DNA of 64,000 bases, from NCBI GenBank assembly GCA_020912385.1, contig CP087209.1, positions 2,790,001 through 2,854,000 of the forward strand. Reading direction: 5' to 3'. Positions 5,253 to 23,161 of the stretch are shown piece by piece. The notes under the pieces were generated by a model that was not told where the DNA came from, searched no databases, and saw only the letters and a program-made list of their open reading frames with translations. Each line of letters opens with the position of its first letter. Position 1 is the stretch's first letter. The DNA is from Neofusicoccum parvum (lineage: Eukaryota > Ascomycota > Dothideomycetes > Botryosphaeriales > Botryosphaeriaceae). Made by a program: the position numbers and the translations under genes.

Positions 5253-6408
5253 ATGTCGGCATCCGAGTCAATGCAAAAGCTACCCGAACCCCGTTCGCGG
5301 GATGCATTCGTCTCCATCCGCCCATTCAGCACTGGCTTGCTGACAGCACCCCTGGGTATTCTCGTCGACGGCCTCACCGGCGAACAGGAAAGCACATCGT
5401 GGCGCTTCTTCCTCGAGCACGCCGGGACTGGCACGAAATTCTGGTTCGACATGGGCCTTGGTCCTGTAAGTCGCCCGCTCCTGCTCCCACACCCTGTCGT
5501 ACCCGCTTCTTCGCCTCGTCCATCTATCCACCCAACGCGCTACTTCCTGCACCATCACACATCTAAGTAACACCTCCACCCACCACAGGACCTCGCCGAC
5601 TACCCGCCCCAAGTTCAGTCCTTCATGCACCCCCTCTTCTCCACGCGCCCCGCCCCCAACACCCCGGCCGACGACCACGCCGCCCTCTCCATCGCTCCCT
5701 CCGCCGTCACCTACGTCATCGCCAGCCACGCGCAGTGAGTCCCCGCCCCGCCCCGCCCCCCCTCCAACCCCACCCCACTCACCCGCCCGCCCACCGCACA
5801 GCTGGGACCACATGATCCCGCTCGGCCCCTACTTCGACGGCGCGACGACGACGCTCGTGTGCGGGCCGGGCACGCTCGCCATGACCGGCGCGCGCGGCAC
5901 GCACCCCACCACGCCGTCCTCGCTCTACGACGGCCGCGTCTGGGACCCGGCCGCCGCCGACGTGCCCGTGCGCGAGGTCGACGACCTGATCGCGGCCCGC
6001 GGCGGCGAAGCCCGCTGGCAGCCGCTGGCCGCCTTCGACCGCGCCTACGACTTCTTCGGCGACGGCAGCTTCTGGCTGCTCGACGCCCCCGGCCACCTGC
6101 CCGGCAACCTGGCGGCGCTGGCGCGCGTGCGGGCGAGGGCGGATGGTGCCGGAGAAGGCGGCGACGCGGATTACAGGTGGGTGCTGCTGGGTGGGGATTG
6201 CGCGCACTGCAGGCATCTGGTCGAGCATCCGGACGCGCCGTTCGGGACGGTGGATGTGGGGGGCGGCGGGGGCGGCGAGACGATCCATGAGGATCCGGTG
6301 AGGGCGAGGGAGACTATTAGGAAGATTGCGGAACTGAGGGAGGTGGATGGGAGGGTGAGGGTTTGGTTGGGCCATTCGGTGGAGTTGGAGGGGGTGGAGG
6401 AGTTGTGA
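5253..6408 (+). CDS. metallo-beta-lactamase-fold hydrolase
   Basis: Three exons, 5253-5465, 5589-5734 and 5802-6408, give 321 residues with all phases consistent. Introns are GTAAGT...CACAG and GTGAGT...CACAG. The second splice creates the zinc-binding motif S-H-A-H-W-D-H (HxHxDH), the signature of the superfamily. Downstream are 'LDAPGHLPGNL' (the GHxxG histidine) and 'LLGGDCAHCRHL' (the D/C...H region). The overall layout resembles N-acyl-homoserine-lactonase-like and other fungal MBL hydrolases. The substrate cannot be told from sequence. There is no signal peptide, so it is likely cytosolic. The start at 5253 is the first ATG of the frame. The third exon is markedly GC-rich. Confidence 0.85.
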
Positions 6409-6617
6409 GATTTTGTGAGGAAAGTTGCGTCTTTCTGGTAGATTTTGTAAGATTGTAGACGACATATGACTGTGTTTGAAGTCATAATGTCAAACTAGAC
6501 ACATCCACACTCACACTGTAGAGTAATGACACTGAGCAATTTCGTGAAAAAGAAAAAGAGAAAGAAGAAAAGCAGACGGAATCCTGCTGACACAGCGGAA
6601 AGGTGTAAAAAGAAATT

Positions 6618-6824
6618 CGACCGGTACGGGAGTCTAGAGTGATGTTAGCACACTGGACGACATCATGAATGGAACGTGTAGAACTTACCGAACCCGCAAC
6701 CTTACCCTTACCACAGCACGAAGCCGAATCTAATCTATAGCATGAGCATACTGGGAAGGGCGACCAGTTGCTTGATACTAATGAAATTAGGAGGGGTACG
6801 CTCTGCCAATTGCGCTAACCGGCC
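6618..6824 (-). tRNA. tRNA-Arg (CCU) with anticodon-loop intron and T-loop GT-AG intron
   Basis: On the minus strand, exons 6824-6788, 6708-6689 and 6633-6618 join into a 73-nt cloverleaf. The acceptor stem is GGCCGGT/ACCGGTC (one G-U), the anticodon stem TACCC/GGGTA and the T stem GCGGG/CCCGT; the D stem GCGC/GAGC has one mismatch. The anticodon loop C-T-CCT-A-A gives CCU, Arg. Intron 1 (6787-6709, 79 nt) lies at the canonical place after position 37, and G at its -3 position can pair with C32. Intron 2 (6688-6634, 55 nt) begins GTAAGT, contains GCTAAC 15-20 nt before its end and ends TAG. It separates TTCG from ACT of the T-loop and interrupts the B box. A T run (6611-6607) follows as Pol III terminator. 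The discriminator base is G. Confidence 0.85.
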
Positions 6825-6969
6825 AGTTTGATGAAGGAGGAGGCGGCTTTTCGGGCAGATGTACGCAGAATTGTGTTGAGCCGGTGTTTGACCTGGCAAA
6901 CACAAAGTGCACATGAACACTCATGGCTTCAAGGAGCAAGGGCTAAACCCCCCAAAAAGAAAAACCAAC

Positions 6970-7175
6970 TGACCGATGCGGGACTCTACGTCTTTGTTGG
7001 CAACAAACTCCCTGCAAAGCCCAAACTTGAGGACTCACCGAGCCCGCAACCTCGCCTTGTGCAGTAGTTCCAGTTCCAGGACATCAGGGTATGCTACTTG
7101 AAGCAGGCGAATCCGCGCCCGAGCCTGTTGTGAGACTATAGAAGAGGCGTGCGCTGCCAATTGCGCCAATCGGCC
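6970..7175 (-). tRNA. tRNA-Arg (UCU) with anticodon-loop intron and T-loop GT-AG intron
   Basis: Paralogue of the tRNA gene 145 bp downstream. On the minus strand, exons 7175-7139, 7058-7039 and 6985-6970 join into 73 nt. The acceptor stem is GGCCGAT/ATCGGTC, D stem GCGC/GCGC, anticodon stem CGCCT/AGGCG and T stem GCGGG/CCCGC. The only non-Watson-Crick pair among these is G2-T71. The anticodon loop C-T-TCT-A-A gives UCU, Arg. Intron 1 (7138-7059, 80 nt) sits after position 37. Intron 2 (7038-6986, 53 nt) runs GTGAGT...GCCAAC...GTAG and splits the T-loop at the same point (57/58) as its neighbour, although the intron sequences are not alike. Two T runs (6964-6960, 6958-6954) follow. The A box TGGCGCAATTGG is intact. 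Confidence 0.85.
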
Positions 7176-7591: not shown

Positions 7592-9429
7592 CTACACCCT
7601 CATGGCGAACTGCTTGAGGTATTCGTAGTCGGCAACGTTCGCGTCGACGGTGTCCTTGATGACCTTTGCGCCCTCCTCGCCGAACTTCTTGACCCACTCG
7701 GCATAGAGCTCGTCATCGGGTTTCGGGATCTTCTTCTTTTCGATCAGCGATGTCAATATGTCTGTTCAAAGAGAATGGAGGAGGATAATAATAAATCAAG
7801 CCGTTCCTTCCCAGCTCAAACCGCAGCCGCAAAAAGCAGTCCCCTCGTCGCCGACATTACTCTTTCATTCGCATCCTCGAATCCACGCAAACACTCGTGA
7901 TGATCGAACTGATAGATGGAAGATAGGTGTACGGAAGACAGAGGAGAAGGATTTTCGCGACCGAGAGGTCTGGTCGGGAAGAAACAGCATGTCAACTCAC
8001 CTGGGCGCGGGGCTTCAGATCCCTCGAGTCGATGGCATCCTCGTGGAATCCCTTCCACTTCTCGAACTTCTCCTTCGCGATGCGATGGTCCTCCTCGTTG
8101 TCCCAGTTGAGCATCTCCGGGCTGTACTCGATGCCGACGCTCTTGCAGTAGGTCGAGATGATGCCGGCCGGGTCGTCCAGCAGGTCGTCGGCGTCGATGA
8201 CGCAGATCTCGACGGGCTCGGCGCCGTAGGGCGGAGTGACATGGGTGCCGTTGGCCTCGCCGTTCGGCTCGTTCTCCTGGCCGGCGACCTTGGGGCCGAC
8301 GAGGCCGATGCTCTTCAGGTAGTCGAAGGTGCGGCGCAGCTCGTCGTAGCCGGCCTCGGACGGCATGAAGTTGTAGAAGCCGGTGACGTCGTCGAGCGGC
8401 GGCACGGTGCAGCGGAAGTAGGAGGGGATGCTGTTGCGCGGGTGGCGGATCAAGAAGGTCCAGTGGAACTTGCTGAGCAGCTCCGTCGGCACCACGGTCG
8501 GGTTGCCCGCCTCGACAACGGTGGGGTAGGGATACGGAGGCACGGTGGCCTCGTGCATCTCGACCTTGGCCTCATGGCTCACCCCATTCGGCGCGGCGGC
8601 GGTGTCGCCGTTGGGGACAGCGGTGGTGCCGTGGGCGCTGTCCACGCGGGCGTGGGCGTTGGTTTTGGCGAGGTCGGTGCCCACGCCGCGCTTGTACTGG
8701 ACGAGGGATGACGCAATCGACGCCGGCTTGTGCTCCGGCGGCACCAGGTAGTGCGTGATGTCCTTGATGAAGAGCCTCTTGCCCTGTTGCCCGGTAAGTA
8801 CATGTCGAGACCTCGCAATCGCGAGGCTGCGGGCTCCCGCGCTGGCCGCCGGGCCGAAAAAGGAAATGTGCAGGTCGGGGGTTTTTCGTCTGCGCAGGTT
8901 GAGCTGCGGACCTTCGCGAGGCTGTAGCGAGTAGTATCATGACCGAGCACCGTTGAGGCACAGAGAGCACAGAACGCCATGTGTGTGAGGTCGGGGGTTT
9001 TGGAAAAGTAGTTTTATTTTTTCTTTTTTCCCGTGATCTTCTGGGAACGCAACGGATGACGCAGACAAAGGAGAAGGGGCGCAAGGCCGAGGGCACGGCG
9101 TCTTGCTGCTGGGGGGAAGGGATCCAACCTCAGTGTTCTCACGGTCTATTCGGTCGAAGATGGTCCTGTAGGTGCTCTCCTCGAAGCCGCTCTCCGCTCG
9201 CGCTTTCTCGTCGGCCTCGTAGCGCTCACTAAGCCTTTCGGGGCCAAAGTAGAAGGCGTCTCCGAAGGGCTCGTGGACGCACTGCAGCGTGTCCCGGCAC
9301 GTCATAAAGACCTGCGGTGGAACAGGGCGTCAGTGAAGGGCAGGGCATCCGGCGGGGGGGACTAACGCGCTCAAAGGCGGTCGAGCAGGCCCGCGGGTGG
9401 GTTGCGGTGAAGATTGGCTTCTTCGACAT
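7592..9429 (-). CDS. sulfotransferase-like P-loop protein
   Basis: Four exons: 9429-9367, 9311-9129, 8783-8001 and 7735-7592 (390 residues if the last acceptor is right). The N-terminus MSKKPIFTATHPRACSTAFERVF carries the fungal sulfotransferase-type 5'-phosphosulfate loop. 'FLIRHPRNSIPSYFRC' at the middle matches the 3'-phosphate-binding RxxxxxxxS motif. 'ICVIDADDLLDDPAGIISTYC' and 'WKGFHEDAID' are typical of the C-terminal half. It would transfer sulfate from PAPS to an unknown acceptor, if active. Intron 2 is long (345 nt). The last intron has a clear GTGAGT donor; the acceptor at 7736 (AAAAG) was chosen because it keeps phase and gives '...LKPRAQKKIPKPDDELY'. The nearby CAG at about 7752 would bring a stop. 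It is cytosolic, with no signal peptide. Confidence 0.8.
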
Positions 9430-12192: not shown

Positions 12193-13607
12193 TCAACATC
12201 CTTTCTGGACCAAGAATGCGGCAGTATCATGAGCTCCGACCGTCACCGTGACTCCATTCTCTGTACAGCCCAGGGTCTCTCCTGTCCAGACGTTGATGAC
12301 TTGGTATGTTCCGTCTTCATCCAACTCAGGTACCTCGGCCCAGCTCGCTGTCTTCTCTACCGCTGTTTCGTCCGTGTTTAGCACAAGCACAAGTGTGCCA
12401 TTCGTGCTCTCTCCAGCCCAGTACTCGGCCGGCCTCTCCGGATCGAAGGTCCAGTCCGGGTTTGTCCCCCATTTATATGGCGTGGCCGGTGCCCCAAACA
12501 CCGGGTCCTGGTGGAAGGCAAGGAGGTACTCGTTCAGCATAACCTCAACGTTCTCCTCGCTCAGCGTGTCTAAGGCCGTTCCGATCAGCAACGGACTCTT
12601 CATCGCCGCCCATAGCGAAAAATGCGAGCGCGCCTCCGCGAGCGTGAGGTTCCCGTTCCCGACTTCCAGCATGTCGGCGTCCCCATGACCCCAAAAGTCG
12701 ACGTTGTTGAGGTAGAATGAATTTTCGTTCAGGATCTCCAGGATCCGGGGCCATTTGTCTGTGATGTCGCCGGACATGCGCCACGAGCTTCCGGTCTCGT
12801 TGCCCCACGACTGCACGTCGGCTTGGCCCCAGTCGCAGAGGCTGTAGAGGATGGTGCGGTTCTGGGCAGCAAGCGCGTCGCGCATGCGGCGGTAGCGCTC
12901 TGCCGTACGGGATGTGCTCCAGTCGTAGTCGTCAGCGCAGAGACCGGTGGTGTTGGTGCCTGCGCCCAGGTCAGTATGTGGCACATTTGGAAATTTGGGC
13001 CGGCTTACATGTGCCATTGACGTAGATGTTGACGTTTGTGGAATCGGGTACGCAGAAATTGCACTCGTCCGTCCAGTTGCTGGGAACGCCGCAGTTATCG
13101 TACTTCAGGTCTGGAAGAGCATAGCGTTAGCAGACTGCCGGTTCTGCTCGTACCGCACAACCACGTACAGTCAATCCCCCATTCCGCCCACGTCGCAGCA
13201 TCGATTTCCTCGTACCCCAGACTCGCGGGATACCCGGCACACGTCGTCGCTCCGGCACTGCTGTAGATGCCGATCTTCAGGCCGAGGTCGTGGATCTCGG
13301 CGGCGGTGCCGTTGATGCCGTCGGGAAACTTGGTGTAGTCGGGGATTATGCGGCCGGTGGTGTTGTCGCGGCCGGACTTGACGGACCAGCAGTCGTCGAT
13401 GTTGACGTACTCGTAGCCGGCATCCTTGAAGCCGAGCTCGACGAACTTGTTGGCGGCGGTCAGGAAGTTGGCCTCGCTGATGTTACACGCAAACTCGTTC
13501 CACGAATTCCAGCCCAGTGCGGGGAGGCGGCCAACACCGTCGGGGAGGACGAGCGCGGCTGCTATGGGGATGGAGGTAAGAGACAGTAAGAGCTTCGGGG
13601 CCATCAT
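12193..13607 (-). CDS. secreted alpha-galactosidase, GH27
   Basis: Three exons, 13607-13169, 13110-13009 and 12959-12193, give 435 residues. An N-terminal signal peptide ([20 protein letters not shown]) is followed by '[14 protein letters not shown]', '[10 protein letters not shown]' and '[19 protein letters not shown]', hallmarks of glycoside hydrolase family 27. The first splice builds D-Y-L-K-Y-D-N-C, which contains the nucleophile Asp. 'SSWRMSGDI' carries the expected acid/base Asp. '[15 protein letters not shown]' is the conserved metal-free loop; it has Gly-Asp-Ala-Asp where many relatives have Asn-Asp-Pro/Ala-Asp. A C-terminal beta domain ends '...AAFLVQKGC'. It releases terminal alpha-galactose from melibiose/raffinose-type sugars or galactomannan, outside the cell. 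Several N-glycosylation sequons are present. Confidence 0.93.
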
Positions 13608-13666
13608 GACGCCCTGCAAGAAATGACACCGGATTCGCTCTGAAAACCGGCACACCAGACTCCGCT

Positions 13667-13672
13667 CTTATA
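13667..13672 (-). promoter_or_regulatory. TATA-like element upstream of GH27 gene
   Basis: TATAAG on the minus strand, about 60 nt before the ATG at 13607. Confidence 0.3.
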
Positions 13673-22528: not shown

Positions 22529-23161
22529 CTCCTCCCTGTATGAAGCCAGTTCAATGCAAAGGACATGGATTTCGTGGGATTTTCTTTTTGACCAAGAGCC
22601 GCGGGCATGAGGATTGAGCCCGGCAGCATGTACGGTGAAGGTCCTGGGATCACCGACGCAATCACTGGGCTGCGTCAGCAGTTGAACCGACGATACTAGG
22701 GCATCTGCTTTTCAGTTCATATGGCACAGGTTTGGGAGGCGTTGGGAGGCATTGCCGTTTGGTTATTGTAATTGATGGTTTGGGATAGGAACAACCCGCT
22801 AACGGTAAGATAGGAAACTACAACATGGGCATAAAGATGTTCACCAACAATGCCGTCAGATACAAGCCCTTGATCAGACGCAGTATCTGCTCTTGCCCAA
22901 CTCATTTCTTCAAGTGACTAGCGCAAAGACTTCTTCCATGCCAACCAACAGGACTGGTTGCAGACTACAATGAATGTACCGACAGATAAATTACGAGTTC
23001 GCCGCTGAACAAGTTCCGGCGCGCCCGTACTCAAAGATCGTCGAAGGTTGTTCTTGTCTCTTACACCAAGAGTGCATCCAGCTCAAGGTCTGCAGATTGG
23101 TGCTGCAGATCGAGCGAGGCATGAGACGGATCAGCGATCCAGATGTGATTACGGAGGGCAA
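22529..23161. other. intergenic
   Basis: No gene seen. One tRNA-like B-box match (near 22614) did not fold. Confidence 0.5.

Follow-up and report, generated by a model that had tools for sequence, protein, structure and literature searches.

Probable spliceosomal introns in nuclear tRNA genes of the fungus Neofusicoccum parvum

Introduction

Spliceosomal introns have reportedly been gained several times by fungal U6 snRNA genes, as Canzler is said to have described in 2016, and Rogers is said to have reported mRNA-type introns in fungal nuclear 18S rDNA in 1993. Ribosomal RNA is a Pol I transcript. According to an excerpt of PMC5832005, frequent interruption by introns is known among small structured RNAs only for U3 and U6. 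Nuclear tRNA introns are described as lying exclusively at position 37/38, unicellular algae excepted (excerpt of PMC3978253), and as being removed without the spliceosome (excerpt of PMC13149111). Introns in the D and T arms, sometimes accompanied by a canonical intron, occur in archaea, Cyanidioschyzon merolae and nucleomorphs; as far as the excerpts of PMC4090602 and PMC3978253 go, these introns are of the BHB/endonuclease type or, in a nucleomorph, very short and of unknown splicing. No report of spliceosomal introns in nuclear tRNA genes was found in searches of the open papers of PubMed Central.

The window analyzed here is a stretch of 64,000 nucleotides from the genome of the plant-associated fungus Neofusicoccum parvum (assembly GCA_020912385.1, contig CP087209.1, positions 2,790,001 to 2,854,000 of the forward strand). 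It contains two tRNA-Arg genes with an additional insert in the T loop. These inserts of nuclear tRNA genes are very probably spliceosomal introns of the U2 type (GU-AG), and the pair would be part of a genome-wide set. They resemble the introns of fungal U6 snRNA genes in being GT-AG introns in a short structured RNA of the Pol III class, but here they reside in tRNA genes, affect several isotypes and occupy six insertion sites within one genome, and the T-loop introns split and apparently in part replace the internal promoter. With the normal spliceosomal introns of fungal U3 snoRNA they share the setting of a small structured RNA, and with those of fungal 18S rDNA that of a non-coding structured RNA; the hosts differ, being a tRNA here. 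The three U6 matches and two U3 matches in this genome look intron-free, as the whole model is spanned within 99-107 nt and 221-223 nt, respectively. The archaeal, algal and nucleomorph introns occupy the same arms, also next to canonical introns, but the inserts described here differ from them in their GT-AG ends, branch motif, uniform length and lack of a strict BHB motif.

Structure of the two tRNA-Arg genes

Base-level reading, combined with ARAGORN after in-silico removal of introns, resolved both genes into three exons and two introns on the minus strand. The tRNA-Arg(UCU) gene occupies positions 6970..7175 of the window. Its exon 1 (tRNA positions 1-37; 7139..7175) carries TGGCGCAATTGG at tRNA positions 8-19 (7157..7168), which we take to be an uninterrupted A box. 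There follow an 80-nt intron at the canonical 37/38 site (7059..7138; TSEN type by position), exon 2 (38-57; 7039..7058), a 53-nt T-loop intron between positions 57 and 58 (6986..7038) with the motifs GTGAGT...TGCCAAC...GTAG, and exon 3 (58-73; 6970..6985). The branch-point A is predicted within TGCCAAC at 6997, 11 nt from the 3' end of the intron, and a sequence scan revealed a T-run resembling a Pol III terminator behind the gene (6960..6964).

The tRNA-Arg(CCU) gene (6618..6824) lies at a distance of 145 nt and is built in the same way. Exon 1 (6788..6824) contains the uninterrupted sequence TAGCGCAATTGG (6806..6817), likewise presumed to be the A box, and is followed by a canonical 37/38 intron of 79 nt (6709..6787; again TSEN type by position), exon 2 (6689..6708), a 57/58 intron of 55 nt (6634..6688) with the motifs GTAAGT...TGCTAAC...CTAG, and exon 3 (6618..6633). 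The predicted branch-point A of TGCTAAC is at 6645, again 11 nt from the 3' end of the intron, and a terminator-like T-run is located at 6607..6611.

The sequence-only reading that drew attention to this locus had claimed that 73-nt cloverleaves with UCU and CCU anticodons form only if two segments are removed from each gene. This was borne out base by base, and re-reading of the minus strand verified the coordinates and lengths that it gave for both introns of both genes. In the mature forms of 73 nt, the acceptor (7 bp), anticodon (5 bp) and T (5 bp) stems are full if G-U pairs are allowed, and the D stem of the CCU gene has a single mismatch, G.A at 12:23. ARAGORN called no tRNA on the 64-kb window, and the sole match above the cut-off in an Rfam scan of the window was a snoRNA elsewhere and not a tRNA. 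Removal of the T-loop intron alone was sufficient for ARAGORN to recognize both genes at full length, one as tRNA-Arg(tct) and the other as tRNA-Arg(cct), and to assign a 37/38 intron to each. The snoRNA match is to the H/ACA snoRNA snR36 (22972-23129, minus strand; 72.2 bits, E 1.9e-11).

As had also been noted, the two T-loop introns share their site and differ in their interiors (52% identity against a mean of 46 and a maximum of 58 for shuffles). This arrangement fits the proposal that the insertion preceded the duplication of the pair, but it could also have arisen by separate gains at a single favored position.

The pair is situated between protein genes, flanked by a plus-strand reading frame ending near 6408 and, on the other side, by a protein gene on the minus strand, the final coding piece of which reaches to about 7595. 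No TATA-like site was present within 60 bp upstream of either tRNA gene. The minus-strand neighbor (7595-9305) is a P-loop protein gene (Pfam PF19798, precomputed for relatives) with 98% identity to Neofusicoccum parvum UCRNP2, and its coding pieces are separated by gaps of 342 and 262 nt. A GH27 alpha-galactosidase gene (12193-13667, minus strand), whose nearest named relative is from Neofusicoccum ribis (92%), has one mapped intron of 58 nt. By these two protein matches, the genome would belong to the Botryosphaeriaceae (Dothideomycetes) and most likely to Neofusicoccum, in agreement with its source.

Search for further interrupted tRNA genes

The genome (44.0 Mb, 18 contigs) was searched with GGYTCRGTRWGT, a pattern in which the T loop runs into a 5' splice site. 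It yielded 59 hits compared with 93 for the reversed control pattern, so that most hits have to be attributed to chance. All 59 hits were read and filtered for a full T stem and a near-full acceptor stem across a GT...AG insert, which retained eight genes: the two window genes, a second Arg-CCU gene (L071), Ala-AGC L084, Ala-CGC L086 and the Pro-CGG genes L097, L121 and L122. If a full 7-bp acceptor stem was demanded, 12 of 64 sites with GGYTCR directly followed by GTRWGT passed the structural filter (including repeats from overlapping loci, and representing the eight distinct genes) versus none of 222 control GTRWGT sites without a preceding GGYTCR; with one acceptor mismatch allowed, two of the 222 control sites passed.

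BLAST with an Ala-AGC gene whose sole intron is at 37/38 added three genes with the same exon sequence. L126 has a GC-AG intron and L128 a GT-AG intron in the T loop, while L127 has a GT-AG intron in the D loop and an uncut T loop. L084 combines both locations, and its D-loop intron entered the collection with its gene and not via its own splice site. A BLAST search with 23 strung-together tRNAs, for which 40 of 58 candidates were scored, led to six inspected places with pieces that did not fit a plain 37/38 intron. Clean GT-AG inserts were found at four of them, namely in the initiator tRNA-Met genes L141 and L142, in Ser-AGA L143 and in Ser-GCU L144. The other two, L145 (Thr-CGT) and L146 (Cys), are incomplete, decayed copies that lack a GT-AG insert, and they were excluded from the catalogue; they are located at C3:2801502 and C6:1444720, within about 130-140 bp of the intact Thr-CGT and Cys genes but on the opposite strand from these. 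Two Leu-CAG genes, L056 from the Rfam search and L147 from BLAST, both have an intron at 25/26.

The Rfam tRNA search of the genome scored 63 of 860 candidates and gave 49 hits, of which 46 were read and the other three are extra copies of Lys-CTT; as only this share was scored and the window genes were missed, the search is no census. BLAST with the two spliced window tRNAs matched only their own first exons. A pattern joining a 5' splice site to an internal B box returned eight hits (five known genes with T-loop introns and three chance matches), and a pattern for the D-loop intron at 19/20 returned four (L127 and three chance matches). No hits were obtained with the T-loop-intron pattern in collections of bacterial/archaeal and viral contigs, a result of little weight for a feature of fungi, and the motif-length spectrum of mRNA introns was uninformative in the window (13 matches compared with 10.2 in shuffles).

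Overall, 18 spliceosome-type introns were catalogued in 17 tRNA genes for Arg, Ala, Pro, initiator Met, Leu and Ser. The earlier suggestion of T-loop introns of the spliceosome type is thus supported and extends beyond one locus to site 57/58 and five D-arm sites. Ten introns lie at 57/58, two at 19/20 (Ala-AGC), two after nucleotide 23 (initiator Met), two at 25/26 (Leu-CAG), one just before G18 (Ser-AGA L143) and one after nucleotide 11 (Ser-GCU L144).

Intron boundaries and splice signals

All 18 introns are 52-58 nt long (median 55). Their 5' ends are GT in 17 cases and GC in one (GTAAGT 11, other GT forms 6, GCAAGT 1), and their 3' ends are AG throughout (CAG 12, TAG 6). In 15 introns the branch motif reads CTAAC, and in the other three it reads CCAAC, TTAAC or CTGAT, with its A located 9-14 nt from the 3' end of the intron in the entire set. 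The ordinary 37/38 introns of the same genome contrast with this picture, since none of 26 is of the form GT...AG and three of 26 hold a CTRAY motif. For comparison, the single mapped mRNA intron, that of the alpha-galactosidase gene, is of a similar kind, with the form GTACGT...TGCTAAC...CAG and a length of 58 nt; the coding pieces of the P-loop gene are 342 and 262 nt apart. The one GC-AG intron among otherwise GT-AG tRNA introns, that of L126 (C14:523065-523183 plus the 3' part), reads GCAAGT...TTCTAAC...TAG.

The ends of ten introns could be fixed by comparison with an intact paralogue. Exact placement allowed one or two positions per insert (19 over the ten introns), and a GT/GC...AG placement was available in all ten. 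Seven of the ten genes tested in this way had been found by exon similarity alone, without selection for splice motifs. The initiator tRNA-Met reference consisted of 41 bases of the intact gene L018 preceded by one base from the intron-bearing copy, a base that has no influence on the placement. For the remaining eight introns (window pair, L071, three Pro-CGG and two Leu-CAG) the searches yielded no intact paralogue, so that their ends rest on structure and on the GT...AG that was sought.

These boundaries bear on the question of which enzyme would remove the inserts. As in archaea, Cyanidioschyzon and nucleomorphs, the tRNA splicing endonuclease could act on BHB-like motifs of ectopic introns, and the GT-AG ends would then be incidental. 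Archaeal non-canonical introns at 25/26 and 56/57, sometimes beside a canonical one, lie near the sites described here (excerpt of PMC4090602), and three of the 18 introns would permit a relaxed 4-bp helix close to their 3' end. The complete central 4-bp helix of a strict BHB motif, however, was present in none of the 18, as judged by a simple script that was run without a known BHB intron as positive control. The GT/GC...AG ends of every intron, the branch motifs at a narrow range of distances, in contrast to the canonical introns, and the uniform length also speak against endonuclease cleavage, which we regard as extremely improbable. Self-splicing group I or group II introns were rejected as an explanation because all known introns of these kinds are, to our knowledge, longer than 52-58 nt.

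Integrity of the spliced tRNAs

Once the GT-AG introns were removed, ARAGORN recognized a full-length tRNA in all 17 genes, with the expected anticodon in 14; in L084, L127 and L144 the program misplaces the 37/38 intron. The unspliced sequences gave a full-length call for three of 17 genes, all three with the wrong identity. In two families, the exons are conserved while the introns have diverged. Five Ala-AGC loci have the same exon sequence, with a D-loop intron in two, a T-loop intron in three and both in one. Among these genes, the T-loop introns agree in 58-62% of positions (shuffle maxima 58-60) and the two D-loop introns in 57% (shuffle maximum 60). Likewise, the exons of the initiator tRNA-Met genes L141 and L142, which are located on different contigs, are identical, and the intron interiors agree in 54% of positions compared with a mean of 50 and a maximum of 62 for shuffles. 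The introns of the Leu-CAG pair (73% identity), of the Pro-CGG genes (90% for L121/L122, 66% for L097/L121) and of the window CCU gene and L071 (64%) appear to be younger or more conserved than those of the initiator Met and Ala genes.

The exons that differ do so in a paired manner. Intact and intron-bearing initiator tRNA-Met genes have six differences, which together amount to double changes at three base pairs, of which two belong to the acceptor stem and one to the T stem; this covariation is small, derives from two sequences and is equaled by 65 of 500 shuffles. Among the trio of intron-bearing Arg genes, five pairs have changed on both sides and 98.4% of the cells are paired, and each of these values is reached by two of 500 shuffles, while the number of pair types is unexceptional (153 of 500 shuffles). 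The only unpaired cell of the trio is the G.A mismatch at 12:23 of the window CCU gene.

These observations are relevant to the possibility that the loci are tRNA pseudogenes with insertions that never mature into tRNA. A review of 2014 (excerpt of PMC4090602) states that insertions in the D or T arm of eukaryotic tRNA genes are commonly assumed to mark pseudogenes. Truly decayed partial copies do occur in this genome (L145 and L146), and the D-stem mismatch of the window CCU gene could be viewed in the same light. Furthermore, copies free of GT-AG introns, some with a 37/38 intron, exist for Arg-UCU, Ala-AGC, Ala-CGC, initiator Met, Ser-AGA and Ser-GCU. The sequence-only reading had named intact UCU and CCU genes elsewhere in the genome, combined with a lack of transcripts from this locus, as an argument for pseudogenes; one intron-free tRNA-Arg(UCU) was indeed found (L011, contig C8), but no intact CCU gene appeared among the top-scored candidates, and the only other CCU gene found, L071, also carries a T-loop intron. 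No intact Pro-CGG or Leu-CAG gene was found among these candidates either, and the intron is present in two of two Arg-CCU, three of three Pro-CGG and two of two Leu-CAG genes found, counts that are provisional and not a census. Other Arg, Pro and Leu tRNAs might read the respective codons by wobble. Against decay stand the identical exons of Ala-AGC and initiator Met paralogues with differing introns, the compensated stem changes, the retention of splice and branch motifs by all 18 introns and, with the reservation that such runs are also common by chance, the T-runs behind every gene. Retention of exons and splice signals alongside drifting introns is not what one expects of pseudogenes, and we consider it very unlikely that these genes are dead.

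Promoters and terminators

All ten introns at 57/58 split the B box of the Pol III promoter. A B-box matrix was built from 27 B boxes of the same genome and the introns were scored against shuffled sequences. Eight of the ten T-loop introns contain a B-box-like 11-mer at a shuffle p below 0.05. In seven of the ten, the 11-mer begins at +12 with GTTC at +13, a six-base spacer behind the 5' splice hexamer, and six of the ten read GTTCRANYC at +13; the element of L121, for example, is GTTCGATCC. None of the eight D-arm introns, whose genes keep their own B box, has such an element at p below 0.05, and T-loop introns (n=10) score higher than D-arm introns (n=8) with p 0.0015. As the T-loop introns may share descent, their internal B boxes need not reflect independent selection. 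The B box GGTTCAATTCC is additionally found 9-10 nt past the gene and before the T-run in four Ala-AGC genes with GT/GC-AG introns, including L128, and it is absent from the fifth Ala-AGC gene, which has a 37/38 intron only. The window CCU gene has a poor internal match, CGTTCCATTCA, at +13 of its T-loop intron (6666..6676; shuffle p 0.08), and no replacement B box was detected for the window UCU gene, either within its intron (shuffle p 0.36) or downstream.

Judged by intron position and the general A-box consensus, 15 of 17 genes have an unbroken A box, and the introns of Ser-AGA and Ser-GCU lie inside it. The latter gene (L144; C14:850470-850720) is cut within the A box by its intron after nucleotide 11, and the first bases of that intron, GTATGTGG, appear by eye to rebuild the A-box-like sequence TGGCGTATGTGG. 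All 17 genes are followed by a run of at least four T residues, located no more than about 34 nt beyond the 3' end of the gene.

The interrupted promoters leave some room for transcription by Pol II, in which case the loci would be part of longer spliced RNAs from which the tRNA is released or not. Spliceosomal removal would be compatible with this scenario and only the polymerase would differ. The split B boxes, particularly that of the window UCU gene with no replacement, and the two Ser introns inside the A box would agree with it. The T-runs close behind all 17 genes, the replacement B boxes in introns or downstream, the A boxes left whole in the other 15 genes and the position of the window pair between protein genes point away from Pol II, whose involvement we judge unlikely.

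Proposed maturation and implications

With spliceosomal introns in Pol III transcripts as the preferred explanation, the following course of maturation can be proposed. Pol III would transcribe the genes from A box and B box to the T-run, and the B box used in several genes with T-loop introns would be the replacement inside the intron or just downstream. The spliceosome would then recognize GUAAGU...CUAAC...YAG by intron definition and remove 52-58 nt, thereby joining positions 57 and 58 or the D-arm exons. Folding of the T arm or D arm would follow this removal, RNase P and tRNase Z would subsequently trim the ends, and TSEN and ligase would take out the ordinary 37/38 intron after the spliceosomal step. 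The anatomy of the genes fits this course; the polymerase, the splicing machinery, the sequence of events and the functionality of the tRNA products are inferred.

The spliceosome would then be a tRNA-maturation enzyme in this lineage, acting on the D arm and T loop of many nuclear tRNAs and serving initiator tRNA-Met as well as every Leu-CAG, Pro-CGG and Arg-CCU gene found. The B box of Pol III would have been relocated into the T-loop introns, and the codons CUG, CCG and AGG would be decoded with at least partial dependence on pre-mRNA splicing. This broader proposal appears likely, though we hold it less firmly than the nature of the introns themselves. Both window genes were missed by ARAGORN and Rfam, and the non-canonical-intron search of tRNAscan-SE 2.0 is intended for archaeal candidates (excerpt of PMC8450103); fungal tRNA sets may therefore be undercounted and some annotated 'pseudogenes' may be real. 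If the interpretation is correct, a second, spliceosomal class of nuclear tRNA introns exists, the spliceosome acts on pre-tRNAs, and translation capacity is coupled to mRNA splicing. The five Ala-AGC genes, which agree in their exons but not in the introns they contain, would then represent a clean natural experiment on intron gain.
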